A stretch of DNA of 64,000 nucleotides from Sphaerisporangium album. GTDB lineage: Bacteria > Actinomycetota > Actinomycetes > Streptosporangiales > Streptosporangiaceae. Below are positions 18,943 to 33,432 of this stretch, piece by piece. The position numbers and the translations under genes are program-made. Each line of letters starts with the position of its first letter. Positions within the stretch are counted from its first letter, which is position 1. The DNA lies in the NCBI RefSeq assembly GCF_003323745.1, contig NZ_QOIL01000006.1, positions 1 to 64,000 on the forward strand, in the 5' to 3' direction. The notes under the pieces are model-generated. The model saw only the letters and a list, made by a program, of their open reading frames with translations, had not been told where the DNA came from and did no database searches.

Positions 18943-19857
18943 TCACCGCCGGGGCGGCACCGGGACGCGCATCAAATCTTCGGCCACCACCAGGTCGCTC
19001 TCGAAGTGGCGGCGGGCCTCGGTGGCGAAGGCCGTGGGGTCGGGGTAGCGCTGGCTGAAGTGGGTCAGGACGAGGCGGCGGACGCCGCTCTCGCGGGCCA
19101 CGCGGGCGGCCTGGCCGGCGGTGAGGTGGCCGAACTCGTGCGCCAGGCGGGCGTCGGCGTCCAGGAACGTCGACTCGATGACCAGCATGTCGGCGCCTTC
19201 GGCGAGGGTGTGGACGCCCTCGCACAGGCGGGTGTCCATGACGAACGCGAACCGCTGGCCGGGCCGGGGCTCGCTGACCTCCTCGACGGTCACCGTGCGC
19301 CCGCCCACGCGGATGCCTCCCTCGCGCACCAGCTCGCCCACGCGGGGGCCGCTGATGCCGAGGGCCGCGAGGCGGTCCGGCAGCATGCGGCGCCCGTCGG
19401 GTTCGACCAGCCGGTAGCCGTAGGCCTGGACGGGATGGTCCAGAGGATGGGCCTCCAGCCGGCCGAACGCGCCCTCGGCGATCACTCCGGGCGCGCGCAC
19501 GGGCTGGGCGATGACAGTGGCGGTCTCGTGGTAGGAGCTGGCGTGCCGCAGGCGGGCGAAGTACTCGGCGCCCGAGGCCGGGAAGTGGGCGTACACGGGA
19601 TGCGGCACGCGGTCCAGGGACATGCGCTGGACGACGCCGGGCACGCCGAGGCAGTGGTCGCCGTGGAAGTGGCTGATCAGGATGCGGGTGATGTCGGTGG
19701 CGGCCACCCCCGCCATGATCATCTGGCGCTGGGTGCCCTCGCCCGGGTCGAACAGCAGACCGGCGCCGTCCCAGCGCAACAGGTAGGCGTTGTGGTTGCG
19801 CCGGCGGGTCGGCGTCTGACTGGCCGTACCTAGGACGACGAGCTCACGCGTGGACAC
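18943..19857 (-). CDS. rnz: Ribonuclease Z (tRNA 3' processing endonuclease)
   Basis: This 304-residue metallo-beta-lactamase-fold endonuclease removes 3' trailers of tRNA precursors. The zinc motif is HFHGDH (residues 63-68); further ligands are in SSYHET and VMDTRL, and LTHFSQRY is the conserved motif near the C-terminus. The length equals the bacterial RNase Z short form. It starts at GTG with a weak ribosome-binding site. It is convergent with the tRNA-fMet gene, which suits its role but may be chance, since that tRNA has an encoded CCA. Confidence 0.93.
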
Positions 19858-19968: not shown

Positions 19969-20895
19969 TCAGAGGTGCTCGGCGAGGAACGCCGTGGTCG
20001 CCTCGACGGCCTGGGTGACGTAGGGCTCGGTGTCGTAGAGGTCGATGTGGTGGCGGGCGTCGAGCCAGACGATCCGCTTCGGGCCCTCCATGCGCTTGTA
20101 CGCCTCCTCGGCCCCCTCCGGCGCGCAGAGGCGGTCGACGACGCCGTGCACGATGAGCCCCGGTTTGGGGGCCAGGAAGTCCGCGCCGATCATGCCGTCC
20201 ATCGTGATGAGCTCGCGGACCGACGCCCGGGTGACCTCGTTGACCCACGAGGGCGCGGCCGAACGCGCGGTGCCGTAATAGGCGAACGGCTCCTCCCCCG
20301 GCATGGCCGCCTCCCCCGACACGGCCACCGCGGGAAGGTACTCGACCTCGCCACCCAGGTCCTGGCGCTCCAGCACGCCGGTGAGCGCGGCCAGCGCCTC
20401 CTCGTAACCGTCGTCGGACATGCCCGCGCGCATCGCGTACGGGTTGTCGTACGCGCCCGCGATGCCGGCGAAGACCTTCACCCGGGGGTCGAACGCGGCG
20501 AAGCGCAGAGCGTACCCGCCGCCGAGGCAGATGCCGACGACGCCGACCCGCTCGCCGTCCACGGAGGGGAGCGCGCGCAGGTAGGAGACGGCGGCGCGCA
20601 GGTCGGCGAGCTTGCCCTGCGGGTCCTCGTGCCGGCGCGGCGTGCCCTGGGAGGAGCCGAAGTTGCGGTGGTCGAACGCCAGCGTGACGTACCCCGCCTC
20701 GGCGAGCCGCGCCGCGTACAGGCCGGTCACCTGCTCCTTCACGCCGGTGAACGGACCGGTGAGGACGAGCGCGGGACGCGGCCCCTCCCCTGTGGGCACG
20801 CGCAGGTCGCCCGCGAGAGTGAGACCGTCGGCCTTGAACGTCACCGGGTCGATCACGACGGGCGCGGCCACGGGCTCGGGGACTGGCACGGTCAT
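19969..20895 (-). CDS. Dienelactone-hydrolase-like alpha/beta hydrolase (Cys nucleophile)
   Basis: This 308-residue enzyme has an alpha/beta hydrolase fold. The nucleophile elbow reads GICLGGG, so the nucleophile is Cys123 rather than Ser, as in dienelactone hydrolases. DHRNFGSSQG before it is the usual oxyanion region, GLIVHGVVDRLCAPEG carries the acid and DARHHIDLYD the probable His. It starts at ATG; a GTG 18 bases earlier is an alternative. It lies 22 bases after the S9 peptidase gene and is probably the last gene of the peptide-amide operon, where it could hydrolyse an ester, amide or lactone product. Confidence 0.8.
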   Translation of the reverse strand: MTVPVPEPVAAPVVIDPVTFKADGLTLAGDLRVPTGEGPRPALVLTGPFTGVKEQVTGLYAARLAEAGYVTLAFDHRNFGSSQGTPRRHEDPQGKLADLRAAVSYLRALPSVDGERVGVVGICLGGGYALRFAAFDPRVKVFAGIAGAYDNPYAMRAGMSDDGYEEALAALTGVLERQDLGGEVEYLPAVAVSGEAAMPGEEPFAYYGTARSAAPSWVNEVTRASVRELITMDGMIGADFLAPKPGLIVHGVVDRLCAPEGAEEAYKRMEGPKRIVWLDARHHIDLYDTEPYVTQAVEATTAFLAEHL

Positions 20896-20917
20896 GCCGC
20901 CACCGTACGGCACCGGC

Positions 20918-22771
20918 TCACCCGACGAGCCAGCGTCCCAGCCAGCTGGCGACGGCCTCCCAGAAGACCAGCTTGTTGGCCGTCCGCACGGTCTCGTGGC
21001 CCTCGTCCTCGAACAGCAGGTAGCGGCAGGGGATGCCGCGCGCGGTGGCGGCGGCCACGACCTGCTCGGCCTCGTAGACCGGCACGTTGGTGTCCTGGGC
21101 GCCGTGGACGACCAGCAGCGGCGCGGTGAGCCGGTCGAAGGAGTGGATCGGCGACAGCGAGCGCAGCAGCTCGCGGTCGGCCACCGGGTCGCCGTACTCG
21201 CCGACGGCGGCGGCCGCGATCCACGGCTCGGTGAGGGCGTAGAACGTCGCGAAGTCGGCCATGCCGCACACGTCGACGCCCGCCCGGAACAGCTCCGGGT
21301 AGGTGACCAGGGCGGCGAGCGTGAGGTAGCCGCCGTAGGAGCGGCCCATGCAGGCGACGCGGCCGGGGTCGGCGACGCCGATCCTCACCATGTGCTCGAC
21401 GCAGTCGGCGACGTCGTCGATGGCGTGGAAGCGCAGCGCGTGGTTGTCGGCGTCGAGGAAGGCCCGCCCGTACCCCGAGGAGCCCCGGACGTTCGGCGCG
21501 AACACGCTGATGCCGGCCATGAGGAGCCGGTGGAAGAGCGGGTTGAACGTGGGGCGTTCCTGGCTTTCCGGGCCGCCGTGCAGGTAGATGAGGCACGGCC
21601 CGGCGGACGGCCCCGCGCGGTGCAGCCAGCCGGTCAGCTCCAGGCCGTCCCGGGCGGCGAAGCGGACCAGCTCGGTCTCGACCCCGTCCGGCAGCGGCTC
21701 GTCCCCCGCGACCCGGTGGTACCGGCCGCTCTCCAGGTCGCACAGCAGGATGTGGGACGGCGTGTCCGGGGACTCGGCCGCCAGCACGGCGAGCGTGCCG
21801 TCGCAGGAGATCCGTGCCGAGGTGACCACGTCGGCGGGCGGCGGGGGCAGCGGGCGGAGGTGGTTGCCCTGGAGGTCGGCGACCTCCAGCTCGGAGCGGC
21901 CCATGACGTTCCAGGCCAGCAGGGCCACGCGGCCGTCCAGGCTGACCGAGAACCGGTCGAGGTCGGCCTCCGGGCGCTCGGCGACCACGCGCGGCGCCCC
22001 GCCGACCGGCACGGCGACCAGCGCGGCGCGGTCGCGGCCCGCGTCGGAGCGGACGTAGGCGATCTCGCCGTCCGGCGACAGCGCGCCGAGGTCGGTGGTG
22101 GCCGGCAGCAGCGGGCGCTCGTCGCCGACGGGAAGGTCGGCGACGGCCATCATGCGCTGGCCGCGCGGCCCGTGGCGCAGCAGCGCGCGCCGGTGGTCGC
22201 GGCTCACCGCGCTCGGCCACATCAGCGGCCCGCTGGCGATGGTGTCCCGGTGGCCGAGCTCGGCGTCGATCAGGACGGCCTCGGTGGTGCCCGAGCCGCT
22301 GAGCTCGGCGACGAGCAGGGTGGCGCCGCGCCCGGTCCACCGGACGAACACGGCCGAGCCCCGCGCGGGGGCGTCCACCGGCCCGGCGAGCAGGCGCCGG
22401 TCGGTGCCGTCCGGGCGTACCGCCCAGACCTGGGTGTGCTCGCCGCCGCCGGGGGCGACCAGGACGGCGAGCCACGCGCCGTCGGGCGACCAGAGCACGT
22501 CCCCGACCGGCTCCGGCCCGGTGTCGACGAGCCAGGCGGGGGCGGGAGGTCCCTGGGACGGGGTCGCCCCGCCGGGAGGCAGGGGCTGGACCCAGACGCG
22601 GGGAGAGCCGTCGCGGTCGCTGACGAAGGCGACGGCCGTGCTGTCAGGGGACAGTGCGGGAGACCGGCAGGTCCACGAGACGTCTACTTCAGACTCCTTG
22701 CGCTTGCAGCCACAGTTCGAGAAGTCCAAGTTGCCACAAAGCGTTGGCTCCGAGTGTGGTTCTGTGGTCAT
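20918..22771 (-). CDS. S9 family prolyl-oligopeptidase-type peptidase
   Basis: This 617-residue serine peptidase has an N-terminal beta-propeller with WD/TolB-like blades (SPDSTAVAFVSDRDG, WSPDGAWLAVLV) and a C-terminal alpha/beta hydrolase. The triad is Ser478 (GRSYGG), Asp560 (HGAQDTNVP) and His592 (EDEGHE). It has no signal peptide, so it should cleave short peptides in the cytoplasm. The only in-frame start overlaps the end of asnB by 83 bases; the resulting N-terminus is Cys-rich (CGNLDFSNCGCKRKE). Within this operon it may degrade or trim the peptide product, in the place taken by an M42-type hydrolase in the related NAGGN trio. Confidence 0.85.
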   Translation of the reverse strand: MTTEPHSEPTLCGNLDFSNCGCKRKESEVDVSWTCRSPALSPDSTAVAFVSDRDGSPRVWVQPLPPGGATPSQGPPAPAWLVDTGPEPVGDVLWSPDGAWLAVLVAPGGGEHTQVWAVRPDGTDRRLLAGPVDAPARGSAVFVRWTGRGATLLVAELSGSGTTEAVLIDAELGHRDTIASGPLMWPSAVSRDHRRALLRHGPRGQRMMAVADLPVGDERPLLPATTDLGALSPDGEIAYVRSDAGRDRAALVAVPVGGAPRVVAERPEADLDRFSVSLDGRVALLAWNVMGRSELEVADLQGNHLRPLPPPPADVVTSARISCDGTLAVLAAESPDTPSHILLCDLESGRYHRVAGDEPLPDGVETELVRFAARDGLELTGWLHRAGPSAGPCLIYLHGGPESQERPTFNPLFHRLLMAGISVFAPNVRGSSGYGRAFLDADNHALRFHAIDDVADCVEHMVRIGVADPGRVACMGRSYGGYLTLAALVTYPELFRAGVDVCGMADFATFYALTEPWIAAAAVGEYGDPVADRELLRSLSPIHSFDRLTAPLLVVHGAQDTNVPVYEAEQVVAAATARGIPCRYLLFEDEGHETVRTANKLVFWEAVASWLGRWLVG

Positions 22772-24512
22772 CCGGCGCGGCGAGGAGCTTCTCCACCATC
22801 GCGGGCCGGAACAGGCCGCGTGAGCGCGCGGCGGGAGCGTTGAGGGCCTCGCGCACCATCTCCAGGAACGGGCCGTGGATGTGGCGGATCGCGGGCACCG
22901 GGAAGTACCCCTTCGGCCGGTCGATGACCTCGTCGGGGACCAGCCCGCGCGCGGCGGCCTTGAGCACGCCCTTGCCGCCCTCGGCCAGCTTGAGCTCGGG
23001 CGGGCACATCGCGGCCAGCTCGACGAGCTCGTGGTCGAGGAACGGCGTGCGCGCCTCCAGCCCGAAGGCCATGGTCATGTTGTCGACCCGCTTGACCGGG
23101 TCGTCGACCAGCATGACCTCGGTGTCCAGGCGCAGCACCGCGTCCAGCGCGGTGTCGGCGCCCGGCTCGGCCAGGTGTGCGCGGACGAACGCGCCGCTGA
23201 CGTCCTCGCCGACCAGGTACTCGGGTTCGAGGATCTCGGCCAGGTCCTCGTGCGGCCGGTCGAAGAAGACCTTCGCGTACGCCTCGGCCGCCCCGGCGCG
23301 GGGCACGTCGGCGAGCGGCGGGTACCAGTCGTAGCCGGCGAAGACCTCGTCGGCTCCCTGGCCGGACTGGACGACCTTGACGTGCCGGGACACCTCCTGC
23401 GACAGCAGGTGGAAGGCGACGCAGTCGTGGCTGACCATGGGCTCGCTCATCGCGGCCACGGCGCGGCCGAGCGCGGGCAGCAGCCGCGCGTCGTCCACCA
23501 TGATCTTGTGGTGGTCGGTGCCGAACCTCTGGGCCACGAGGTCGGAGTACGCGAACTCGTCCCCCGACTCGCCGCCGGCGGCGTGGAAGCCGACGCTGAA
23601 CGTCGCCAGGCCGTGCTGGCCCTCCTGCGCCAGCAGCGCGACGATCATGCTGGAGTCCAGCCCCCCGGACAGCAGCACGCCGACCGGCACGTCCGCGACC
23701 GTCCGGCGCCGCACGGCCACCCGCAGGGCGTCCAGCACGGCGTCCCGCCAGTCGCCCGCGTCCATCGGCCCCGCCGCCGTCTGCAGCACGTCGAGCTGCC
23801 CCTGGCGGACGGCCCCCTCGGCCGGGCGGGTGAACGGCGGGTTCCAGTACCGGTCGTCGCTGATTGCGCCGTCGGGCTCGATCGTGCGGACGGTGGCGGG
23901 CGGCAGCTTCTCGACCCCGGTCAGGATCGTCCGGGGCGAGGGCACCACCGAGTGGAACGTCATGTAGTGGTGCAGGGCGACCCGGTCGATGTCGGTGCGC
24001 ACGCCGCCGCCCGCGAGCAGCGCGGGCAGCGTCGAGGCGAACCGCAGGCGGGAGGCGTCCCGGGTGATGTAGAGCGGCTTGATGCCGAGGCGGTCGCGGC
24101 CGAGCACGACGCGGCCGGTGTCGCGCTCGGCGATCGCGAAGGCGAACATGCCCTTGAATCTCTCCACGCACCGGGGCCCCCAGTGGCGGTACGCCTTGAG
24201 CAGCACCTCGGTGTCGGATGTCGAGAAGAACCGGTGGCCCTCGGCGATCAGGACCTCGCGCAGCTCCCGGTAGTTGTAGAGGCAGCCGTTGAACACGCCC
24301 GCCAGGCCGGCCTCGGGGTCGGTCATCGGCTGCGATCCGCGCTCGGACAGGTCGATGATCTTCAGCCGCCGGTGTCCCAGAGCCACGGGGCCGAGCGACC
24401 ACAGGCCCGTGCCGTCGGGGCCCCGGTCCAGCATCGCCGCCGTCATGCGCTGGACGGCGGCGACGTCCGCCGCGTGCCCGTCGAAGCGGATCTCCCCGCT
24501 GAGGCCGCACAT
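22689..24512 (-). CDS. AsnB-type amidotransferase, N-acetylglutaminylglutamine amide family-like (TIGR03104)
   Basis: This 607-residue glutamine-dependent amidotransferase has an N-terminal class II glutaminase (catalytic Cys2 in MCGLSG, RGPDG, FNGCLYNYRELR) and a C-terminal synthetase domain with the ATP-pyrophosphatase loop SGGLDSS (282-288). KVVQSGQGADEVFAGYDWYP, DDPVKRVDNMTMAFGLEART and RPKGYFPVPA match what I recall of the amidotransferase that caps N-acetylglutaminylglutamine as its amide, more closely than housekeeping AsnB. It probably amidates the carboxyl end of a dipeptide. GGAGG lies seven bases before the ATG, which shares one base with the stop of the upstream ligase gene (TGATG), so translation is coupled. 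Confidence 0.85.
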   Translation of the reverse strand: MCGLSGEIRFDGHAADVAAVQRMTAAMLDRGPDGTGLWSLGPVALGHRRLKIIDLSERGSQPMTDPEAGLAGVFNGCLYNYRELREVLIAEGHRFFSTSDTEVLLKAYRHWGPRCVERFKGMFAFAIAERDTGRVVLGRDRLGIKPLYITRDASRLRFASTLPALLAGGGVRTDIDRVALHHYMTFHSVVPSPRTILTGVEKLPPATVRTIEPDGAISDDRYWNPPFTRPAEGAVRQGQLDVLQTAAGPMDAGDWRDAVLDALRVAVRRRTVADVPVGVLLSGGLDSSMIVALLAQEGQHGLATFSVGFHAAGGESGDEFAYSDLVAQRFGTDHHKIMVDDARLLPALGRAVAAMSEPMVSHDCVAFHLLSQEVSRHVKVVQSGQGADEVFAGYDWYPPLADVPRAGAAEAYAKVFFDRPHEDLAEILEPEYLVGEDVSGAFVRAHLAEPGADTALDAVLRLDTEVMLVDDPVKRVDNMTMAFGLEARTPFLDHELVELAAMCPPELKLAEGGKGVLKAAARGLVPDEVIDRPKGYFPVPAIRHIHGPFLEMVREALNAPAARSRGLFRPAMVEKLLAAPDDHRTTLGANALWQLGLLELWLQAQGV

Positions 24513-27043
24513 CAGACGGCCTCCCCGGACAGCAGCCAGGTATCTTTGGCTCCCCCGCCCATCGACGAGTTGACGATCATGCTCCCGGCGGGGGCGACGC
24601 GGCTCAGCGCCACCTGCGGGACGACGGCCTCCCGTCCGGAGAAGACGAACGCCCGCAGGTCCACCACGTGCGGGCGCATGCGGTCGCCGTCGAAGGTGGG
24701 GTGCGTGGACAGGCTCACGGTCTCCTGGGCCACCCAGCGCTCGGGCGCGGCGAGGATGTCCGCGCGGACGGCCTCCAGCTCGCGCCCCGAGGCGTCCCTG
24801 CCGATGATCACGCCCTGTCCTCCGAAGCCGTCCACCGGTTTGACCACGAGCTCCTCCAGGCGGTCGAGCACGTGCTCGCGGTCCTCGGGGTCGCGGCAGA
24901 GGTAGGTGGTGACGTTGGCGAGCAAAGGGCGTTCTCCCAGGTAGTAGTCGATGAGCCGGGGCACGTAGCGGTACAGGCTCTTGTCGTCGGCCACGCCGTT
25001 GCCCGGCGCGTTGGCCAGGGTGAGCGCGCCGGACTCGATCGCGTCGAGCAGCGCGGGGCCGATCGGGCCGTTCAGCAGCTCGTCCTCGTCGATCCTGCGG
25101 TACAGCACGTCCACCCGCTCCCCCGCGGCGTAGACGGCGCCGTCCCGCACCTCCAGCTGCGCGGGCTCGGCCAGGACCACGCCCATCTCCTCGGCGAGCG
25201 AGCGGTGCTCGTAGTAGGCGGGGTCCTCGCGCCCGGAGGTCACCACGCCGAGCCTCGCGCCGTCGGCCGCGGTGGCTTGGAGCAGGATGCGCTTCAGCAG
25301 CGACGCGGTGCCCTCGGGGTCCAGAACGCCCGAACGGTCCAGCTCGGGCAGAGCGTGGGCGGTGACGCGGCGATTGCCCGTGGCGTACCCGATGCCGGAG
25401 GGGACGCGCAGGTTGTCCTCCAGGACGGCCCAGCGCCCGGCCCCGTCGCGGGCGACGTCGAGCCCGGCGACCGAGCACCGGATCATGTCCTCGCGCACCC
25501 GCCACCCGGCGGGCCGGTATCCGGGCGACTCGTCCACGACCCAGGCGGGCAGCACGTGGTCCTTGATGACCTCGCGCCTGCCGTACACGTCGCGCAGGAA
25601 CGCCTCCAGGGCGCGCACGCGTTGCGGCATCCCCTCGCGGATCTTCGCCCAGTCGTCGGCGGCGACGAGCCTCGGCACCAGATCCAGCGGCATCCGCTCC
25701 CGGCCCTCGGTCACCTCCTCGTCCTTGACGCGGAAGGTCATGCCGATCTCGCGCATGTACCGGTCGCGCTCGGCCTCGCGCTCGCGCAGTTCCACGGCGC
25801 CGAGCCGGTCGAGCACCCCGAAGACCGGCTGGTAGGGCTGGCGGACGGTGCCCTCGATGACGGCCTCGTCCCGCACGGCCTCGTAACCCTTGAGCAGGCT
25901 GGTCGCGAGGTCGGGGACGGGGCCGCCGAACGCCGCCTGCCAGCCTTCCGAGCGCGTCTCGGCGACGAGCAGGTCCACGACGTCGGCGAGGGTCCCGCCG
26001 TCGCCGATGACGCGGCGCTGCCGGGTGGCCGAGCTGCCCCGGGCCAGCGCCTCCTCGGCCAGAGCCGTCACGATCTCCCAGTCGCCGGTGGCCTCCAGCT
26101 GGGGACGCAGGCCCGTGATCGTCCGCCTGACGACCTCGGCGGCGGGCATGGGCGTGCCCTCGTGCGGGTCCACGAGCACGCCTTCCAGGCCCGAGCGCGC
26201 CGAGCGCCAGGTCGCGGCGCGGACGATCTCCATGCCGTCGTCCTGGGGCGGCTCCTCGTTCTGGACGGCGCGCAGCTCGCGCAGCACGATCGCACGGAAG
26301 ATCCCGGCGAGCAGGACGACGTCCTCGACGCGGGGGCAGGCGTCGCACATGCGCAGCTCGATGGTGGGGACGTGCGCCGACGGCCGGACGTCGAAGTAGA
26401 TCATCCCCGGGTCCATGATCACGCCGGAGCGCACGAGGTCGGCGACGACCCGGTCGTACTCGGCGGCGGAGGCGAACTTGCGCACCGGGCCCGTGGTGGG
26501 CCAGCGCTGCCACACCAGCGTGCGGTAACTGGCGTAGCCGCTGTCGGTGCCGAGCCAGAAGGGTGAGCTGGCGCTGAGCGCGAGCAGCGGCGGCAGGTAC
26601 CTGGCCACGCGGTGGGCGACGTTGACCGCGAGGTCGCGGTCGGCCACGTCCACGTGCACCTGCGCGCCGCAGATGAGCTGCTCGCGGGTGAGGAGCTGGT
26701 AGTCCTCCAGCATCTGCTCGTATCGGGCGTCCGGCGAGATCTCCAGCGCGGCCGGGTCCACGAGCGGCACCGTGCCCGCCGCCACGATGCCGAGCCCGAG
26801 CCCGTCGGCGGCCTCGATGACCGTGCGGCGCAGCGCGGTGAGATCCTGCCCGAGGTCCTCCAGCCGCACGTACGGGCGGCTGTTGGACTCGACGACCGAG
26901 CGTTGCAACTCCTGGGTGAAACGCCGGTCGGGCAGCCTTTGGAGGAGGTTGCCCGCGCGTGGCACCAGGTGGCGAGTCTCAAGATCCACGACGTGGAACT
27001 CCTCTTCGACGCCTACGGCGACCGACTCCGCGAGACCCGTCAT
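24512..27043 (-). CDS. Fusion of GCS2 carboxylate-amine ligase and circularly permuted ATP-grasp ligase
   Basis: One 843-residue protein combines two peptide-bond-forming folds. Residues 1-370 are a glutamate-cysteine ligase type 2 (YbdK) domain: VGVEEEFHVVD, HVDVADRDLAVNVAHR, PFWLGTDSGYASYR, TIELRMCDACP. Residues 400-843 are a type 2 circularly permuted ATP-grasp (DUF404/407-like): VLEDNLRVPSGIGYATGNR, VDVLYRRIDEDEL, TLANAPGNGVADDK, VVKPVDGFGGQGVIIG, and the end SMGGGAKDTW. Together they could join two or three amino-acid units without a ribosome. The ATG has AAGGA seven bases upstream. It precedes the coupled AsnB gene. The substrates are unknown; Glu-containing peptides are the usual products of both families. 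Confidence 0.85.
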   Translation of the reverse strand: MTGLAESVAVGVEEEFHVVDLETRHLVPRAGNLLQRLPDRRFTQELQRSVVESNSRPYVRLEDLGQDLTALRRTVIEAADGLGLGIVAAGTVPLVDPAALEISPDARYEQMLEDYQLLTREQLICGAQVHVDVADRDLAVNVAHRVARYLPPLLALSASSPFWLGTDSGYASYRTLVWQRWPTTGPVRKFASAAEYDRVVADLVRSGVIMDPGMIYFDVRPSAHVPTIELRMCDACPRVEDVVLLAGIFRAIVLRELRAVQNEEPPQDDGMEIVRAATWRSARSGLEGVLVDPHEGTPMPAAEVVRRTITGLRPQLEATGDWEIVTALAEEALARGSSATRQRRVIGDGGTLADVVDLLVAETRSEGWQAAFGGPVPDLATSLLKGYEAVRDEAVIEGTVRQPYQPVFGVLDRLGAVELREREAERDRYMREIGMTFRVKDEEVTEGRERMPLDLVPRLVAADDWAKIREGMPQRVRALEAFLRDVYGRREVIKDHVLPAWVVDESPGYRPAGWRVREDMIRCSVAGLDVARDGAGRWAVLEDNLRVPSGIGYATGNRRVTAHALPELDRSGVLDPEGTASLLKRILLQATAADGARLGVVTSGREDPAYYEHRSLAEEMGVVLAEPAQLEVRDGAVYAAGERVDVLYRRIDEDELLNGPIGPALLDAIESGALTLANAPGNGVADDKSLYRYVPRLIDYYLGERPLLANVTTYLCRDPEDREHVLDRLEELVVKPVDGFGGQGVIIGRDASGRELEAVRADILAAPERWVAQETVSLSTHPTFDGDRMRPHVVDLRAFVFSGREAVVPQVALSRVAPAGSMIVNSSMGGGAKDTWLLSGEAV

Positions 27044-27142
27044 TCCATCGTCCTTCTCCCGTTTGTCCAGGGGTGTTTCAGGAGCTTCTGCCCAGAAACC
27101 ACCTAGATGCACGTAACGATGGAAATCTTCGCCCTGTGATGT

Positions 27143-27730
27143 TCAGACGCCCCGCGGACGGCCGCCCGGCACCGTGAGCGAGGCGAGCAGCGTCTCTATG
27201 GCGTCCAGCCGGCGGTTCAGCGCGGCGATGTCCGCCTTGTCCGCGCTCTGCTCCTCCGGCCGCAGCGTGAGCACCAGATGCCCGGTCTCGGCCAGCTCGC
27301 CGACCTGGACCTCGCGGATCTCGTCGCCGTTCTGGATGCGCACGGCGTGCTCCAGCTCCTTGGTGGACATCGCGAGGCGGCGCAGGTTCTCGGTCACCGG
27401 ACGGCCGTCACGGATGACGATCGTCGAGGTGCCCTGGAGCAGCCGCGAGACCCACGCGTACCGCACGGACAGGTGGTTGAGCAGCTCGTTGACGACGACG
27501 AGCGTGACCGCGCCGACGACACCGCCCGCCAGGCTGTTGTCGTTCCCGATCACCGCGTTCTGCACGACGTTGGAGAGCAGGAAGATCACCACGAAGTCGA
27601 ACGTGTTGAGTCCCGCCATGTTGCGCTTGCCCGCCACGCGGAAGATCACGACGATCAGGGCGTAGACCAGGACGGTCCTGAGCAGCTTCTCGGCCACCGG
27701 GAGCTGGAAGGTGAACATGTCGTGCCACAC
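27143..27730 (-). CDS. DUF421 (YetF-like) membrane protein
   Basis: This 195-residue protein has three N-terminal helices followed by the DUF421 domain: RVAGKRNMAGLNTFDFVVIFLLSN, then a soluble portion with TSTIVIRDGRPVTENLRRLAMSTKEL. The family occurs in sporulating Gram-positives and stress settings; its function is unknown. A C-terminal coiled segment (DIAALNRRLDAIETLLASL) may mediate assembly. The GTG start has AGGAG seven bases upstream. It lies 99 bases upstream of the ligase gene on the same strand and may be its first operon partner. Confidence 0.85.
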   Translation of the reverse strand: MWHDMFTFQLPVAEKLLRTVLVYALIVVIFRVAGKRNMAGLNTFDFVVIFLLSNVVQNAVIGNDNSLAGGVVGAVTLVVVNELLNHLSVRYAWVSRLLQGTSTIVIRDGRPVTENLRRLAMSTKELEHAVRIQNGDEIREVQVGELAETGHLVLTLRPEEQSADKADIAALNRRLDAIETLLASLTVPGGRPRGV

Positions 27731-27829
27731 GGGAGGTCTCCTCGTCGCAAGCGTCGCGCCGATCCCTCCGCCCACGGCGGGGCGGAGGTTCGTACGGAGC
27801 GGGCGCCCGTACGAACCTCCTATCATGCG

Positions 27830-29233
27830 TCAGGAGTCGAAGCCGAGCCCCAGCCGGTCCAGGGTGCGCAGCCACAGGTTGCGCCGTCCCTGGTGGGCGT
27901 CCGCCTGGGCGATCGACCAGCGGGTGAGCTGGATGACCCCCGAGCGGATCGGCTCCGGCGGGAACGGAACCGGCTTCTCACGCACCATGCGCAGCTCGGT
28001 GCGCTCGGTCGGCTCTCCCTCCAGCAGGTCCAGCATCACGTTGGCGCCGAACCGCGTCGCGCCCACGCCCATCCCCGTGTACCCGACCGCGTAGGCCAGC
28101 CGCCCCTTGTGCGCCGTCCCGTAGAACGCGCTGAAGCGGCTGCAGGTGTCGATCACCCCGCCCCAGCGGTGCGTGAACCGCACGCCGGCGAGCTGCGGGA
28201 AGGTGGAGGAGAAGTGCGCGGCCAGGGTCGCGAACGTCGCGTCCCTCTGCTCGTACTCCTGCCTGACCCTGCCCCCGTTGAAGTACACCGCGTCGTACCC
28301 GCCCCACAGGACGCGGTTGTCGGCGGTCAGCCGGTAGTAGTGGAACTGGTTCCCGCCGTCGCCGACGCCCTGCCGGTTGCGCCAGCCCACCGACGCGAGC
28401 TGCTCCGCCGTGAGCGGCTCGGTCATCAGCGCGTAGTCGTACACCGGCACCAGGAAGTTGCGCAGCCGCCCGAGCAGCGGCGGGAACACCCCAGTGCCGA
28501 GGGCGACCCTGGCCGCCCGCACGGCGCCGTGCGGGGTGGTCAGCTCCATGGTCGTCCCGTCGTCCCTCAGCGAGCGCACCGGGCTGCGCTCGTAGATGCG
28601 GACGCCGAGCGACAGGCACGCCGCGCGCAGTCCCCACGCCAGGCGGGCGGGGTCGAGCATCGCGCAGCCGCCCCGGTCCCACTGACCGCCGACGTAGGTG
28701 GGCGAGTCCACCTCGGCGCGGACCTGTTCGGCGTTGAGCAGCCGCATGTCCAGGCCGAGCTCGCGGGCGATGCCCGTCTCCTCGGCCATCGCGTCGAGCT
28801 GCCACGGCTCGGTGGCCACGTGCAGCTCGCCGGTGCGCTCGAACGCGCAGTCGATGTCGTACTTGGCGACCGTCCGCTCGATCTCGTCGAGGTTCTCCCC
28901 GCCCAGGCGGACGAGCGTGGAGATCTCGCGGGGCCAGCGGCTGAGGCCGTTGCCGAGCCCGTGGGTGAGGCTCGCGAGGCAGAAGCCTCCGTTACGGCCG
29001 GAGGCCGCCCAGCCGACGCGCCTGCCCTCCAGCAGGACCACGTCGAGCGAGGGGTCGCGTTCCTTGGCCATCAAGGCCGCCCAGAGGCCGGAGAAGCCGC
29101 CGCCGACCACGGCCAGGTCGGCGGTCGTGTTCTCGAAGAGCCGCGGCAGCGGCTCGGGTTTGTCCGGACTGTCCAACCAGTACGGCTTACGCTCCGCGTC
29201 AGCCAGTGCTTTCAGCGGATCCACACATTTCAC
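27830..29233 (-). CDS. FAD-dependent amine oxidase, PuuB/OrdL-like
   Basis: This 467-residue flavoprotein of the DAO family has the dinucleotide fold ADLAVVGGGFSGLWAAL near residue 40, the GWAASGRNGGF loop typical of gamma-glutamylputrescine oxidase-type enzymes, and the C-terminal FAD segment VGYTGMGVGATRFGAN. It probably oxidises a polyamine or an N-substituted amine to an aldehyde. It lies just downstream of potCBDA and shares the locus with an aminobutyraldehyde dehydrogenase, which would take the aldehyde. The start GTG is weakly supported; GTG at 29224 is an alternative. Confidence 0.87.
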   Translation of the reverse strand: MKCVDPLKALADAERKPYWLDSPDKPEPLPRLFENTTADLAVVGGGFSGLWAALMAKERDPSLDVVLLEGRRVGWAASGRNGGFCLASLTHGLGNGLSRWPREISTLVRLGGENLDEIERTVAKYDIDCAFERTGELHVATEPWQLDAMAEETGIARELGLDMRLLNAEQVRAEVDSPTYVGGQWDRGGCAMLDPARLAWGLRAACLSLGVRIYERSPVRSLRDDGTTMELTTPHGAVRAARVALGTGVFPPLLGRLRNFLVPVYDYALMTEPLTAEQLASVGWRNRQGVGDGGNQFHYYRLTADNRVLWGGYDAVYFNGGRVRQEYEQRDATFATLAAHFSSTFPQLAGVRFTHRWGGVIDTCSRFSAFYGTAHKGRLAYAVGYTGMGVGATRFGANVMLDLLEGEPTERTELRMVREKPVPFPPEPIRSGVIQLTRWSIAQADAHQGRRNLWLRTLDRLGLGFDS

Positions 29234-29308
29234 GTCCCAACGAACAGCGTCGTTTTTCCCTGGGCCGGGAACGCCGTGTTCCCGGTGCCAGGCGGGTGTT
29301 TCCCGTCT

Positions 29309-30160
29309 CTAGGTGCGGCGGCGCGAGGTCACGGTGTTGATCACCGCGATGACCACGCCCACCGCGAAGATGAGGGTGCCGAGGATGTTGACCTGCGGGG
29401 GCACGCCGATGCGGACCGCGCCGTAGATCCACAGGGGGAAGGTGATCGTCGCCCCGCTGGTGAACTGCGTGATGACGAAGTCGTCGATCGACAGGGCGAA
29501 GGCGAGCAGCGCGCCGGAGACCACACCCGGCAGGATCATCGGGAACGTGACCCGCCAGAACGTGATCCACGTGGAGGCGCCGAGGTCGCGCGCGGCCTCC
29601 TCCACCGACGCGTCCAGGCCCACCACGCGGGCCCGCACGGTCACCGCGACGAACGAGACCGAGAACAGCACGTGCGCCAGCACGATCGTCGTGTACCCCG
29701 TCTGCACGCCCAGGCTGATGAACAGCGACAGCAGCGAGGCGCCCATGACCAGCTCGGGCGAGGAGATCGCCGCGAACATCACCAGGTTGGTCGGCCCCTG
29801 GCCGCGGAAGCGGTAGCGGCCCAGGGCGATGCCCATCAGCGTGCCGAGCACGGTGGTGACGAGCGTGGCCAGCAGGGCGATGCTGATCGAGTTCGTGACG
29901 GCGGTGGTCAGGTCGGGGTAGTCCCCGAGCCGGCCCCACCACTTGAAGGTGAACCCCTGCCAGCTCACGTTCGACTTGCTCTTGGTGTCGTTGAAGCCGA
30001 ACGCGATCATCACCGCGATCGGCGCGAACAGCCAGAGCAGGACGAGCCACGTGTAGCCGTAGAGAAGGCGGTCGCCCCACCGGGCGCGCGGGCGCCTCGG
30101 CGCGCCCACCGGCGCCTGCCGGGCCTCGGCGGGCAGGGCCGGGCTGAGTGAACCGCTCAT
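29309..30160 (-). CDS. potC: Polyamine ABC transporter permease, PotC-like
   Basis: This 283-residue inner membrane permease has six helices. The EAA loop that contacts the ATPase is EEAARDLGASTWITFWRV, followed by PMILPG. The charged N-terminal 30 residues (APRRPRARWGD) are cytoplasmic. The ATG overlaps the TGA of potB by four bases (ATGA), so the subunits are translated together. Substrate specificity (putrescine or spermidine) is inferred from the neighbours. Confidence 0.9.
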   Translation of the reverse strand: MSGSLSPALPAEARQAPVGAPRRPRARWGDRLLYGYTWLVLLWLFAPIAVMIAFGFNDTKSKSNVSWQGFTFKWWGRLGDYPDLTTAVTNSISIALLATLVTTVLGTLMGIALGRYRFRGQGPTNLVMFAAISSPELVMGASLLSLFISLGVQTGYTTIVLAHVLFSVSFVAVTVRARVVGLDASVEEAARDLGASTWITFWRVTFPMILPGVVSGALLAFALSIDDFVITQFTSGATITFPLWIYGAVRIGVPPQVNILGTLIFAVGVVIAVINTVTSRRRT

Positions 30161-31011
30161 CGCGCCGCCGCCTCCAGGACGTTCTCGGTGCCGAGGGCCT
30201 TGGCGTAGGCGAAGATGCCGATGAGCATCGCCGCCATGAGGATGAACGACAGCGCCGCGCCAGCCGGATAGTCGTTGTTCACGAGATACTCCGTCTGGAT
30301 GATGTTACCGATCATGGTATTCGCCGGGCCGCCCAGGATCGAGGCGTTCACGTAGTCCGCCGTCATCGGCACGAACGTCATCAGAACGCCCGCGAACACC
30401 CCGGGCAGCGACAGCGGCAGCACGATCCTGAGGAACGAGTCGCGGCGCGTCGCGTACAGGTCCTGCGCCGCCTCGACGACCCGCGGGTCCACGCGCTCCA
30501 GCGCGACGTAGATCGGCAGCACCATGAACGGCAGGTAGTTGTACGTCAGCCCGCCAATCACCGCCACCGTCGTCTGCAGCACGTGGAAGTCCGCCGGCAG
30601 CAGCCCGACGTCCTTCAGGGGCTGCAGCAGGATGCCGTCGTCGGCGAGCAGGAACTTCCACGACACCGTCCGCAGCACGAACGAGACGAAGAACGGCAGC
30701 AGCACCAGCAGCAGGTACGTCGACTTGCGCGCGCCCGCCTTGAAGGCGATCCAGTAGGCCACCGGGTAGGCGAGCAGGATGGTCAGCGCCGTCCCCGCCA
30801 GCCCGTACCCGGCCGAGCGCAGGAACTGCGTCTTGTACTCGCCGAGCGCATTGCCGAAGTTGGCCAGGTGGAAGGTCTGGACGAAGCCGTTGACGACGTC
30901 GCCCTCCTGGGTGGAGACCGACGCCATGAACACCAGCGGCACCACCAGGAAGCACAGCAGCCAGAGCCCGCCCGGGAGGATCAGGAGGTATGGCGCGATC
31001 TTCTGTCTCAC
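30157..31011 (-). CDS. potB: Polyamine ABC transporter permease, PotB-like
   Basis: This 284-residue permease of six helices begins at GTG, four bases after the potD stop, with AGGG in the end of potD as ribosome-binding site. The EAA motif reads VEAAQDLYATRRDSFLRIVLPLS. NYLPFMVLPIYVALERVDP is typical of PotB. It forms the heterodimeric channel with PotC. Confidence 0.9.
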   Translation of the reverse strand: MRQKIAPYLLILPGGLWLLCFLVVPLVFMASVSTQEGDVVNGFVQTFHLANFGNALGEYKTQFLRSAGYGLAGTALTILLAYPVAYWIAFKAGARKSTYLLLVLLPFFVSFVLRTVSWKFLLADDGILLQPLKDVGLLPADFHVLQTTVAVIGGLTYNYLPFMVLPIYVALERVDPRVVEAAQDLYATRRDSFLRIVLPLSLPGVFAGVLMTFVPMTADYVNASILGGPANTMIGNIIQTEYLVNNDYPAGAALSFILMAAMLIGIFAYAKALGTENVLEAAAR

Positions 31012-31015
31012 GGCA

Positions 31016-32272
31016 CTAGCCCTGCGTGATCGGCTGGAAGATTCCCTCGAAGGCCTTCTCCTCGGCCGGGGTCAGGGACTTGTAGGAGCGCAGCCTGGCC
31101 ATGTCGGACTCGGAGGGGAAGATCAACGGGCTGGTGGCGGCCAGTTCCAGGGCCTTCTTGTCGTCCCCGCTCGCCTTGGCCGCGTCGGCCTTGATGACCT
31201 CCTGCGCGGCGGGCACGGGGGTGATGTAGGTGATGTACTCGGCCAGGTGCGCGGCGATCTCGGGCTTGTAGACGTAGTCCATCATCGCCAGCGCGTCGAC
31301 CGGGTTCTGCGCGGTCTTGGGGATGCACATGTTGTCGGTCCAGATCGTCGCGCCCTCCTCGGGGACGACGAACTTCAGGTCCTGCCCCTCGGCGATCTGC
31401 TGGTAGATGTCGCCGGACCAGGCCATGCACATCCAGATGTCCCCGCGGACCAGCGCGTCCACGTAGTCGTTCTCGTAGTACTTGCGGACGAGACCGGCGT
31501 CGCGCTGCTGCTGGAGCTTCTGCCCCGCCTTCTCCCAGTCGGCCTGCACGGACTTGTCCGGGTCGACGCCGAGGGCGAACAACGCGAAGTTCGCAATCTC
31601 CTGGGCGTCGAGCATCATGCCGACCTTGCCCTTGTACTTGGGGTTCCACAGCTCCTGGATGCTGGTGATGTCCCCGTCGACGTACTTCGGGTTGTACGCG
31701 ATGCCCGTCAGGCCCGACTGCCAGGGCACGGTGTAGGCGTTGCCCGGGTCGTAGGACGGGTTCTTGTACTTGGCCCCCACGTTGGCGTTGAACGTCGGCA
31801 GCTTGGAGTGGTCGAGCGGCACCAGGTAGCCGAGCGCCATGGCGCGGCCGAGGTGGATGCCGTTCGTCATCACCATCATGTCGAAGCCGATGTCCTGCCC
31901 GGCGGCCAGCTGCGGCTGGATCTTGCCGAACCAGGTGGAGTTGTCCTGGATGGCCTCCTGGTAGGTCACCTGGATGCCGGTGTCCTTGGTGAACGCCTCC
32001 AGGGTCGGGTAGGAGTTCCCCTTCTTCTCCATGTACAGCGGCCAGTTGGCCCACCGCAGGACGCCGTTCTTCTTCTTGTCGGCCCAGTACCCGGCGGCGG
32101 CGCTCGGCTTCGGCGGCTCGACCTTCTTGCCCTGGACGCCGCACGCGGCCAGGCCCAGCGCGGCGGCGGACAGCCCTCCGAGGCGCAGCGCGTCGCGGCG
32201 GGTGAGGGAGGAACGGGTGCGGCTCTGGGTCAGGCCGCGCAGGAACGCGAGATCACGTGGAGGGGTGGTCAT
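31016..32272 (-). CDS. potD: Polyamine-binding lipoprotein, PotD-like
   Basis: This 418-residue extracellular binding protein delivers polyamine to the permease. The signal shows a Tat-like LTRRDALRLGG and the lipobox LAAC, so the mature protein is lipid-anchored. LRWANWPLYMEKKG and FMxxxNxHLGRAM-like MTNGIHLGRAMALGYLVPLD, plus the acidic and aromatic pocket residues in YTVPWQSGLTGIAYNP and AWSGDIYQQIAEG, fit PotD/PotF. The ATG overlaps the potA stop by four bases. Confidence 0.9.
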   Translation of the reverse strand: MTTPPRDLAFLRGLTQSRTRSSLTRRDALRLGGLSAAALGLAACGVQGKKVEPPKPSAAAGYWADKKKNGVLRWANWPLYMEKKGNSYPTLEAFTKDTGIQVTYQEAIQDNSTWFGKIQPQLAAGQDIGFDMMVMTNGIHLGRAMALGYLVPLDHSKLPTFNANVGAKYKNPSYDPGNAYTVPWQSGLTGIAYNPKYVDGDITSIQELWNPKYKGKVGMMLDAQEIANFALFALGVDPDKSVQADWEKAGQKLQQQRDAGLVRKYYENDYVDALVRGDIWMCMAWSGDIYQQIAEGQDLKFVVPEEGATIWTDNMCIPKTAQNPVDALAMMDYVYKPEIAAHLAEYITYITPVPAAQEVIKADAAKASGDDKKALELAATSPLIFPSESDMARLRSYKSLTPAEEKAFEGIFQPITQG

Positions 32273-33432
32273 GAGGTGGTTCGACTTCCAATCGCGTACG
32301 AGTGCTGCGGCTGCCATGACAACCAGACGGATTCACCGCGCTCCGCCGTGATGCTGCTGTCCCGGGCGTTCTGCTCGAACACCGTGAACTCGGCACCGCT
32401 CGCGAGGTTCACGGCGTAGCTGTTGTAGGTGCCGAGGTAGACCACCTCGGAAACGACGCCGCGCACGGCGCTGACGTCGGCGTCCGGCTGCTCGTGGGAG
32501 ATCCGGATCTTCTCCGGGCGGACGGTGACCTCCACCTGGCCGCCCTCGCGCGTCCGGTCGCCGACCGGCACCAGCACACGCTCGCCGTCCCCGACGCGGA
32601 TCACGGCCGTGCCTCCGCTGACCTGGGCGGCCGTGCCGCTGAGCAGGTTGGACGTCCCGATGAAACCGGCGACGAACGTGGTGGCCGGCCGCTCGTAGAT
32701 CTCCCTCGGCCCGGCGAGCTGCTCGACCAGGCCGTCGTTCATGACGGCGATGCGGTCACTCATGGTGAGCGCCTCGTTCTGGTCGTGGGTCACGTACACG
32801 AAGGTGATGCCGACCTCGCGCTGGATGCGCTTCAGCTCCATCTGCATGGCCTGGCGCAGCTTGAGGTCCAGGGCGCCGAGCGGCTCGTCCAGCAGCAGGG
32901 CCCTGGGGTTGTTCACCAGGGCGCGGGCGAGCGCCACGCGCTGCTGCTGGCCGCCCGACATCTGCCGGGGACGGCGGTTCTCGCGGCCGGTGAGGTCCAC
33001 GATCTCCAGCATCTCGCCGACCCGCCGCTTGATCTCCGCCTCGGGGACGCGCTTGCGCCGCAGGCCGAAGGCGACGTTCTCCCACACGTTCATGTGCGGG
33101 AACAGCGCGTAGGACTGGAAGACCATGTTCACGTCGCGCCTGTTGGGCGGCACGTTGGTGACGTCCTGCCCGTGCAGCCGTACGGTCCCCCGGGACGGAT
33201 CCTCGAACCCGGCGATCATCCGCATGGTGGTGGTCTTGCCACAGCCCGACGGTCCGAGCATGGAGAAGAACTCTCCCTCGGCGATCGACAGGCTCACTCC
33301 CTTGACCGCCTGCACGACCTCACCGTGCGCGTGGTACTCCTTGACGACTCCGTCGAGTTCGATGGCGGGCACCGGGGAGATGTCGGAGGCGGCCGGGGCA
33401 GCCGCCTCCTTGCCCGCCTGGATATCGGTCAT
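32269..33432 (-). CDS. potA: Polyamine ABC transporter ATPase, PotA-like
   Basis: This 387-residue ATPase powers the PotBCD importer. Walker A is GPSGCGKTT, the Q-loop is NMVFQSYALFPHM, the signature MSGGQQQRVALARAL, Walker B LLLDEP and the switch HDQ. A C-terminal TOBE domain (VTVRPEKIRISHEQ) extends from about 290. A 20-residue Ala-rich N-terminal extension precedes the domain. It is the first gene of the potABDC operon, 61 bases downstream of the aldehyde dehydrogenase gene, so all five or six genes may be one unit. Confidence 0.92.
   Translation of the reverse strand: MTDIQAGKEAAAPAASDISPVPAIELDGVVKEYHAHGEVVQAVKGVSLSIAEGEFFSMLGPSGCGKTTTMRMIAGFEDPSRGTVRLHGQDVTNVPPNRRDVNMVFQSYALFPHMNVWENVAFGLRRKRVPEAEIKRRVGEMLEIVDLTGRENRRPRQMSGGQQQRVALARALVNNPRALLLDEPLGALDLKLRQAMQMELKRIQREVGITFVYVTHDQNEALTMSDRIAVMNDGLVEQLAGPREIYERPATTFVAGFIGTSNLLSGTAAQVSGGTAVIRVGDGERVLVPVGDRTREGGQVEVTVRPEKIRISHEQPDADVSAVRGVVSEVVYLGTYNSYAVNLASGAEFTVFEQNARDSSITAERGESVWLSWQPQHSYAIGSRTTS

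Follow-up and report, generated by a model that had tools for sequence, protein, structure and literature searches.

The 64,000-nucleotide stretch analysed here (hereafter the window) covers positions 1 to 64,000 of contig NZ_QOIL01000006.1 of Sphaerisporangium album, whose genome measures 9.3 Mb, and it carries on its minus strand a compact cassette built around a glutamine-dependent amidotransferase (AsnB) and a two-domain ligase. In the direction of transcription, a gene for a DUF421 membrane protein is followed by a fusion of a GCS2 domain with a circularly permuted (CP) ATP-grasp domain, by asnB, an S9-family peptidase gene, an alpha/beta hydrolase gene and RNase Z (Table 1; window coordinates are used throughout). 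We consider it rather likely that the cassette is dedicated to making a small non-ribosomal peptide with an amide at its C-terminus, in a pathway that parallels that of N-acetylglutaminylglutamine amide (NAGGN) but relies on a different peptide-forming enzyme. NAGGN is, to our knowledge, among the few known dipeptide osmolytes, and its canonical gene set, asnO-ngg-M42, is represented in our comparison by the annotation of an Azospirillum brasilense locus (L208). Both systems have an amidotransferase of family TIGR03104 with the same tested catalytic positions and with adjoining ligase and hydrolase genes; in the NAGGN pathway, however, the ligase is Ngg (GNAT plus ATP-grasp), encoded downstream, and the hydrolase is M42, whereas here a GCS2 protein, with or without CP ATP-grasp, is encoded upstream and the hydrolase is S9 or EgtC-like.

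The order fusion-asnB-S9 was kept in all ten genus mates compared, and so was the TGATG motif in which the fusion TGA and the asnB ATG share a single base, as the original prediction had read it. The N-terminal conservation of the fusion begins at Met24 (base 27043) in an alignment of 11 genomes, and because the conserved N-terminus begins there, Met24 is probably the true start. An overlap of 83 bases between asnB and the S9 gene had also been described; this length holds if the first S9 ATG is used, a codon found in only 1/10 genus mates, while GTG codons in the others give overlaps of 25 to 55 bases, and one also has an ATG giving 4. Since the S9 frame offers a possible start ahead of the asnB stop in 10/10 genus mates, some overlap is likely, its length being uncertain, and clear S9 similarity begins only at residues 25-29 in nine of them. 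We also considered that the overlap was an artefact, with S9 starting just past the asnB stop, and rejected this, as no in-frame ATG or GTG lies there. The hydrolase ATG does lie 22 bases past the S9 stop, as originally described.

Table 1. Features of the cassette and its flanks in the window.
Feature	Positions	Strand	Evidence
GCS2 + CP ATP-grasp fusion ligase, ORF of 866 aa	24512-27112	-	PF04107 187.6 bits; PF14403 381 bits; NF010041 367.3 bits
GCS2 (YbdK-like carboxylate-amine ligase) domain	26186-27016	-	Pfam, fusion residues 33-309; 1r8g E 5e-36
CP ATP-grasp domain (CP_ATPgrasp_2)	24593-25675	-	Pfam, fusion residues 480-840; 3n6x E 7.6e-95
asnB, NAGGN-family glutamine-dependent amidotransferase (AsnO/TIGR03104), 607 aa	22689-24512	-	TIGR03104; Cys2, SGGLDSS, Gln385
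Base common to fusion stop and asnB start (TGATG)	24512	-	Sequence; 10/10 genus mates
S9-family peptidase, start codon uncertain, overlaps asnB end	20918-22771	-	Pfam; solved relatives
Alpha/beta hydrolase, weakly UilS-like	19969-20895	-	Pfam; 6/10 genus mates
DUF421/YetF-like membrane protein	27143-27826	-	PF04239; 1/10 genus mates
RNase Z	18943-19857	-	After alpha/beta hydrolase

By profile score, AsnB is a member of the NAGGN amidotransferase family rather than an asparagine synthetase: it reached 962.7 bits on TIGR03104 (cut-off 570.1), against 400.6 bits on the asparagine synthase model TIGR01536, 395.8 on the XrtA amidotransferase model and 256.7 on PRK09431, so that the likeness noted in the original prediction is borne out. 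The nucleophile Cys2 and the PP-loop SGGLDSS are intact. Position 385 is Gln in 118/118 aligned family rows, Ngg-linked and GCS2-linked, and Glu in the ordinary AsnB paralogue of the same genome, which served as outgroup; the Glu of the SGEG(S/A)DE loop is presumably catalytic in asparagine synthetase B. Because of the TIGR03104 scores together with Gln385, ordinary asparagine synthesis by this AsnB appears unlikely and its acceptor is probably of the NAGGN sort. Furthermore, the constancy of Gln385 over all rows suggests the same acceptor type on both sides of the amidotransferase tree described below. AlphaFold2 models gave a mean predicted local distance difference test score of 83.2 for AsnB and of 59.7 for the fusion, and the latter model, being poor, was not used.

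The fusion matches the YbdK-type model NF010041 above its cut-off of 332 bits; its solved relatives are YbdK (1r8g) and, over residues 427-862, the CP ATP-grasp protein 3n6x, in agreement with matches to CP_ATPgrasp_1/2 (PF04174/PF14403). GCS2 enzymes use ATP to activate a carboxylate for coupling to an amine, the classic case being gamma-glutamate plus cysteine, and they are known for gamma-glutamyl and not alpha peptide bonds; AsnB-type enzymes convert a carboxylate to an amide with nitrogen taken from glutamine. Despite whole-length similarity to YbdK-type ligases, the cassette GCS2 differs from them in being fused to CP ATP-grasp, tied to an amidotransferase and placed in a separate tree group from the sampled paralogues. 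The CP ATP-grasp half likewise departs from its relatives in its fusion to GCS2 and in having no Alpha-E partner beside it in the Pfam scan. Ergothioneine biosynthesis offers another parallel, since a GCS2 ligase and an EgtC-like amidohydrolase also occur together in Actinomadura-type loci of the cassette; the fusion, however, scored 25.3 bits on the EgtA model TIGR03444 (cut-off 370.8), and the cassette EgtC-like gene is a second copy, with a higher-scoring EgtC elsewhere, in 10/10 genomes tested. The nearest solved relatives of the S9 protein are the aminoacyl peptidase 5l8s, the S9 peptidase 8wt1 and acylaminoacyl-peptidases.

In the genome of S. album itself, the best match to Ngg (TIGR03103) was partial (model positions 247-511), lay on another contig and reached 164.8 bits against a cut-off of 569, and no relative of M42 (TIGR03106) was found at E <= 1e-60. 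The view that both NAGGN partner enzymes are replaced, here by GCS2(-CP ATP-grasp) and S9, thus agrees with the genome content. The same pattern was observed in a class sample of 246 actinomycete genomes searched with profiles for TIGR03104, TIGR03103, TIGR03106 and the fusion. TIGR03104 was present as 75 copies in 74 genomes (E <= 1e-160), Ngg in 41 genomes and M42 in 34 (33 over cut-off). Ngg lay directly downstream of AsnB for 40/75 copies, corresponding to all 40 genomes with both genes, at gaps of -2 to 330 bp. Among the 35 copies without Ngg beside them, 31 have a same-strand GCS2 directly upstream, 22 as the GCS2-CP ATP-grasp fusion and nine as GCS2 alone (17 to 424 bp between the GCS2 model match and AsnB; the contig of genome G234 begins inside the fusion). 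The gene-order comparison proposed at the outset therefore holds both within the genus and across the class.

Hydrolases followed the same division. M42 was found in 34 of the 40 Ngg genomes (33 over cut-off), being missing from the other six, and in 0/31 GCS2-linked genomes. S9 follows AsnB in 29 of the 35 non-Ngg copies (that of G234 is cut by the contig end), including three of the four lacking GCS2; where S9 is lacking, four Frankia-type copies (family f17) have a GNAT in its place, the G162 copy meets a contig end and the second copy of G206 has an alpha/beta hydrolase. Conversely, no GCS2 was found upstream of AsnB in the 31 Ngg-linked sample copies with examined loci, and neither GCS2 nor S9 stood beside AsnB in 34 Ngg-linked loci (31/40 of the sample plus three plasmids), 22 of which had only about 1.5 kb of flank; for the remaining nine sample copies, no fusion-model match adjoined AsnB among the matches listed. 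The partner sets, Ngg plus M42 against GCS2 plus S9 or EgtC-like, are mutually exclusive, which strengthens the case for a related but different amidated peptide.

Variation within the cassette was followed in 67 named loci that were found with the fusion alignment and mapped by tblastn (seven are from Sphaerisporangium and overlap the genus set). AsnB lies downstream in 55 of them, 45 with the fusion and ten with GCS2 alone, the latter in Microbispora, Nonomuraea, Bailinhaonella and most Streptomyces examined. Within these 55, S9 occurs in 35, an EgtC-like gene in 14 and a GNAT in 13 (ten together with S9), and three are cut by a contig end. The EgtC-like loci belong to Actinomadura, Actinocorallia and five records titled only Streptosporangiaceae or Actinomycetes bacterium, and in 14/14 no S9 was found within 3.5 kb or to the end of the available sequence. 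The GNAT loci are those of Frankia, Parafrankia and Pseudofrankia, with the GNAT placed after AsnB/S9 in most Frankia-type loci. The 12 loci without AsnB beside GCS2 were followed up in 11 genomes, seven of which hold TIGR03104 elsewhere, one probably split only by a contig break. On plasmid p1 of Streptomyces fungicidicus, consecutive genes are annotated 'glutamate--cysteine ligase', 'N-acetylglutaminylglutamine amidotransferase' and 'alpha/beta fold hydrolase', with no ngg. At the S. fungicidicus locus L204 (4105-12004), the genes divergent upstream of the GCS2 gene include one of the OsmC family and, at a greater distance, one for a sigma factor. Two other Streptomyces plasmids (L205 8001-12034 and L211 8001-12091) carry AsnB with an S9-type prolyl oligopeptidase and no adjoining ligase gene. 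Additional ligase genes were also seen: two Streptosporangium loci (L053 from about 16142 and L055 from about 16575) have a second GCS2, about 40% identical, after S9, and in Microbispora corallina a stand-alone CP ATP-grasp gene (L094, about 18565, minus strand; 43% identity) lies within a few kb of an AsnB cassette of the GCS2-only type.

These comparisons also delimit the cassette. The alpha/beta hydrolase and the DUF421 protein had been counted as operon members; they stand beside the cassette in 6/10 and 1/10 genus mates, respectively, and the tblastn maps of the 67 named loci showed no match to either outside the genus, so they are local neighbours and no part of the conserved set. In the same way, the two ligase folds originally emphasised are both present in S. 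album, but the CP ATP-grasp fold is not a core feature, being missing from 9/31 GCS2-linked copies. The core set, GCS2 with or without CP ATP-grasp, AsnB and S9, is smaller than first drawn. Directly upstream of the locus (27830-33432, minus strand) lie genes for a PotC/PotB/PotD/PotA-like polyamine ABC transporter and an FAD-dependent oxidoreductase (DAO), possibly an operon for polyamine uptake and oxidation. Membership of these genes in the cassette was considered and rejected, since the DAO, though present in 9/10 genus mates, had no match at the named loci outside the genus.

Phylogenetic analysis gave a concordant picture. In a maximum-likelihood tree of 119 AsnB rows, all 34 Ngg-linked copies, which include three alphaproteobacterial plasmids, fell on one side of one branch, with a value of 96 in the SH-like approximate likelihood ratio test (SH-aLRT); the comparison with NAGGN amidotransferases that had been suggested thus separates the copies by partner, with moderate support. 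Two AsnB positions close to the C-terminus follow the same division. The 34 rows on the Ngg side have Arg (32) or Asn (2) at residue 588 and Leu or Ile (34/34) at residue 584, whereas the 84 remaining rows have Gly at 588 (84/84) and Arg at 584 (81/84); both sets hold near-identical sequences, so these counts are not independent, and in six of the 84 rows AsnB lacks a GCS2 directly upstream. Because the branch to the outgroup paralogue is extremely long (6.06), we do not claim an ancestral partner or a direction of switching. In the GCS2 tree, 88 cassette-type domains, fused or not, group apart from the other sampled GCS2 paralogues (SH-aLRT 93), 12 of these rows having no AsnB beside them. 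GCS2-alone forms are scattered at several places inside this group, which points to repeated loss or gain of the CP ATP-grasp half.

Computation shows which genes make up the set, how far they are conserved, to which family AsnB belongs and that Ngg and M42 are excluded; from this we infer the chemical steps, the substrates and the role as follows. A related but different amidated peptide is probable, because the amidotransferase family is the same while the ligase and the hydrolase are different. The GCS2 domain would join a carboxylate, by family precedent the gamma carboxylate of glutamate, to the amine of an amino acid, likeliest glutamine, at the expense of ATP. Where present, the CP ATP-grasp half would add one further residue or a cap. 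The N-terminal domain of AsnB would then take ammonia from glutamine, and the C-terminal carboxylate of the peptide would be adenylated and amidated. Finally, S9, or the EgtC-like protein in Actinomadura-type loci, may split the peptide for turnover, and the GNAT of most Frankia-type loci could acetylate it.

Confidence differs among the parts of this scheme. By analogy with the enzyme families, synthesis of an amidated small peptide by GCS2 and then AsnB is the part we hold to be most probable. The chances of a gamma-glutamyl bond in the product appear evenly balanced; the best hint comes from the EgtC-like gene, which we take to encode a member of a gamma-glutamyl hydrolase family, since it stands where S9 is missing in 14/14 loci. 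An osmotic or desiccation role, proposed because it is carried over from NAGGN, falls slightly short of an even chance, and gamma-glutamyl-glutamine amide, being net neutral, would be a plausible compatible solute. That the product is exactly gamma-Glu-Gln-NH2 seems unlikely.

Several observations weigh against this interpretation. Four of the 75 AsnB copies have neither Ngg nor a directly upstream same-strand GCS2 (G149, G183, G200 and the second copy of G206); in G183 a 35% identical GCS2 lies several kb downstream of AsnB, and near the second copy of G206 a divergent GCS2 (37%) lies on the other strand about 2 kb off, with the alpha/beta hydrolase downstream. Moreover, 6/28 fusion-bearing sample genomes (G225, G251, G056, G074, G089 and G103) have no TIGR03104, and among the 11 genomes searched behind the AsnB-less named loci, four hold no TIGR03104 over cut-off, three with the fusion and one with GCS2 alone; two of those three match G225 and G251 by coordinates. 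Because fusions occur in genomes without TIGR03104, the ligase can act without AsnB. In the tree, support for the Ngg branch falls to 88/80 in a 53-row subset with bootstraps. The gamma regiochemistry assigned to GCS2 draws on family precedent, and the cassette EgtC-like copies score 200 to 224 bits around a cut-off of 218.65, three of ten lying above it. Lastly, no ortholog of the Frankia GNAT was found in the S. album genome, the best match being 30% over 80 residues. As a separate observation, G074 (locus L203) has Ngg with no TIGR03104 found, and a separate GCS2-CP ATP-grasp fusion elsewhere.

Some of these observations bear on whether the two enzymes work together at all. Fusion and AsnB could be separate functions joined by chance or co-regulation, for example a gamma-glutamyl peptide of thiol or redox metabolism next to an unrelated amidation, and the fusions lacking TIGR03104 would suit this, as would the three sample genomes and the two Streptomyces plasmids in which AsnB and S9 occur without a directly upstream GCS2. 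We nevertheless judge it quite improbable, given that a same-strand GCS2 stands directly upstream of 31/35 non-Ngg copies, that the AsnB and GCS2 trees agree in their major groups and that the one-base stop-start overlap is kept throughout the genus mates. Still less likely, and in our view very unlikely, is a system defined by the CP ATP-grasp half, that is, peptide tagging or protein modification of the CP ATP-grasp/Alpha-E/transglutaminase kind with AsnB amidating the tag. The CP_ATPgrasp_1/2 matches recall it, and the portions of PMC3597751 considered here tie CP ATP-grasp and Alpha-E to a peptide synthesis or modification system; the Pfam scan, however, found no Alpha-E and no transglutaminase among the cassette proteins and their scanned neighbours, and the CP ATP-grasp half is dispensed with in nine GCS2-linked copies.

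A closer competitor is that the cassette makes NAGGN itself, with GCS2 or ATP-grasp forming Gln-Gln, a GNAT, encoded within the Frankia operon or, in other genomes, elsewhere, acetylating it and AsnB amidating it. The AsnB family, the tested catalytic positions and Gln385 are common to both sides, a GNAT stands beside the cassette in Frankia-type loci (13/55 named loci with AsnB), and the closest relatives of S9, aminoacyl and acylaminoacyl-peptidases, would be in keeping with a peptide that is N-acetylated. This reading must be set against a genome with neither an Ngg over cut-off nor an ortholog of the Frankia GNAT, the absence of M42 from all 31 GCS2-linked genomes, the differences at 584 and 588 that follow the side of the tree, and the gamma-glutamyl, not alpha, bonds expected of GCS2. 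It appears improbable to us, and a distinct amidated peptide made by GCS2 and AsnB is preferred.

Published work on actinobacterial NAGGN genes can be read in this light. In the passages of PMC5563000 considered, Casuarina Frankia have an asnO with >60% identity and an 'Ngg' that shares <15% identity with known Ngg, separated by a dipeptidase; as far as those passages go, we infer that this order fits AsnB-S9-GNAT, the GNAT having been mistaken for Ngg and the GCS2 fusion missed. Under polyethylene glycol, the glutamine amidotransferase FRAAL1888 (2.20-fold) and the N-acyltransferase FRAAL2171 (1.5-fold) of Frankia alni increased and were called NAGGN genes in the part of PMC5768760 considered; this proteome was considered as support for an osmotic role and set aside, as neither protein could be tied to the cassette. 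An excerpt of PMC8146288 describes a Micromonospora that yielded NAGGN and carries asnO and ngg, the canonical type by its own naming, and an excerpt of PMC11537254 treats NAGGN clusters as conserved in Micromonospora. A mention of glutamate-cysteine ligase in PMC10733313, in the excerpt concerned, had no bearing on the cassette. No description of a GCS2-AsnB cassette was found among the top matches of searches in the open-access literature.

In brief, we tentatively propose that these loci of soil actinobacteria make a class of gamma-glutamyl peptide amides, such as gamma-glutamyl-glutamine amide, one residue longer where CP ATP-grasp is fused. Such amides would be an unrecognised type of compatible solute or stress peptide in the Streptosporangiaceae, Thermomonosporaceae and Frankiaceae and in some Streptomycetaceae, and a counterpart of NAGGN where Ngg is missing; the amidotransferase would have switched its ligase partner once. 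Public annotation gives the NAGGN name to family members without an adjoining Ngg, as in Streptomyces records, and the split predicts that 31 to 35 of the 75 actinomycete AsnO-type copies serve another pathway and that AsnB residue 588 can distinguish the two types. A targeted search for the metabolite in cultivable strains becomes feasible, and NAGGN assignments in published studies of Frankia under salt and drought may be affected.

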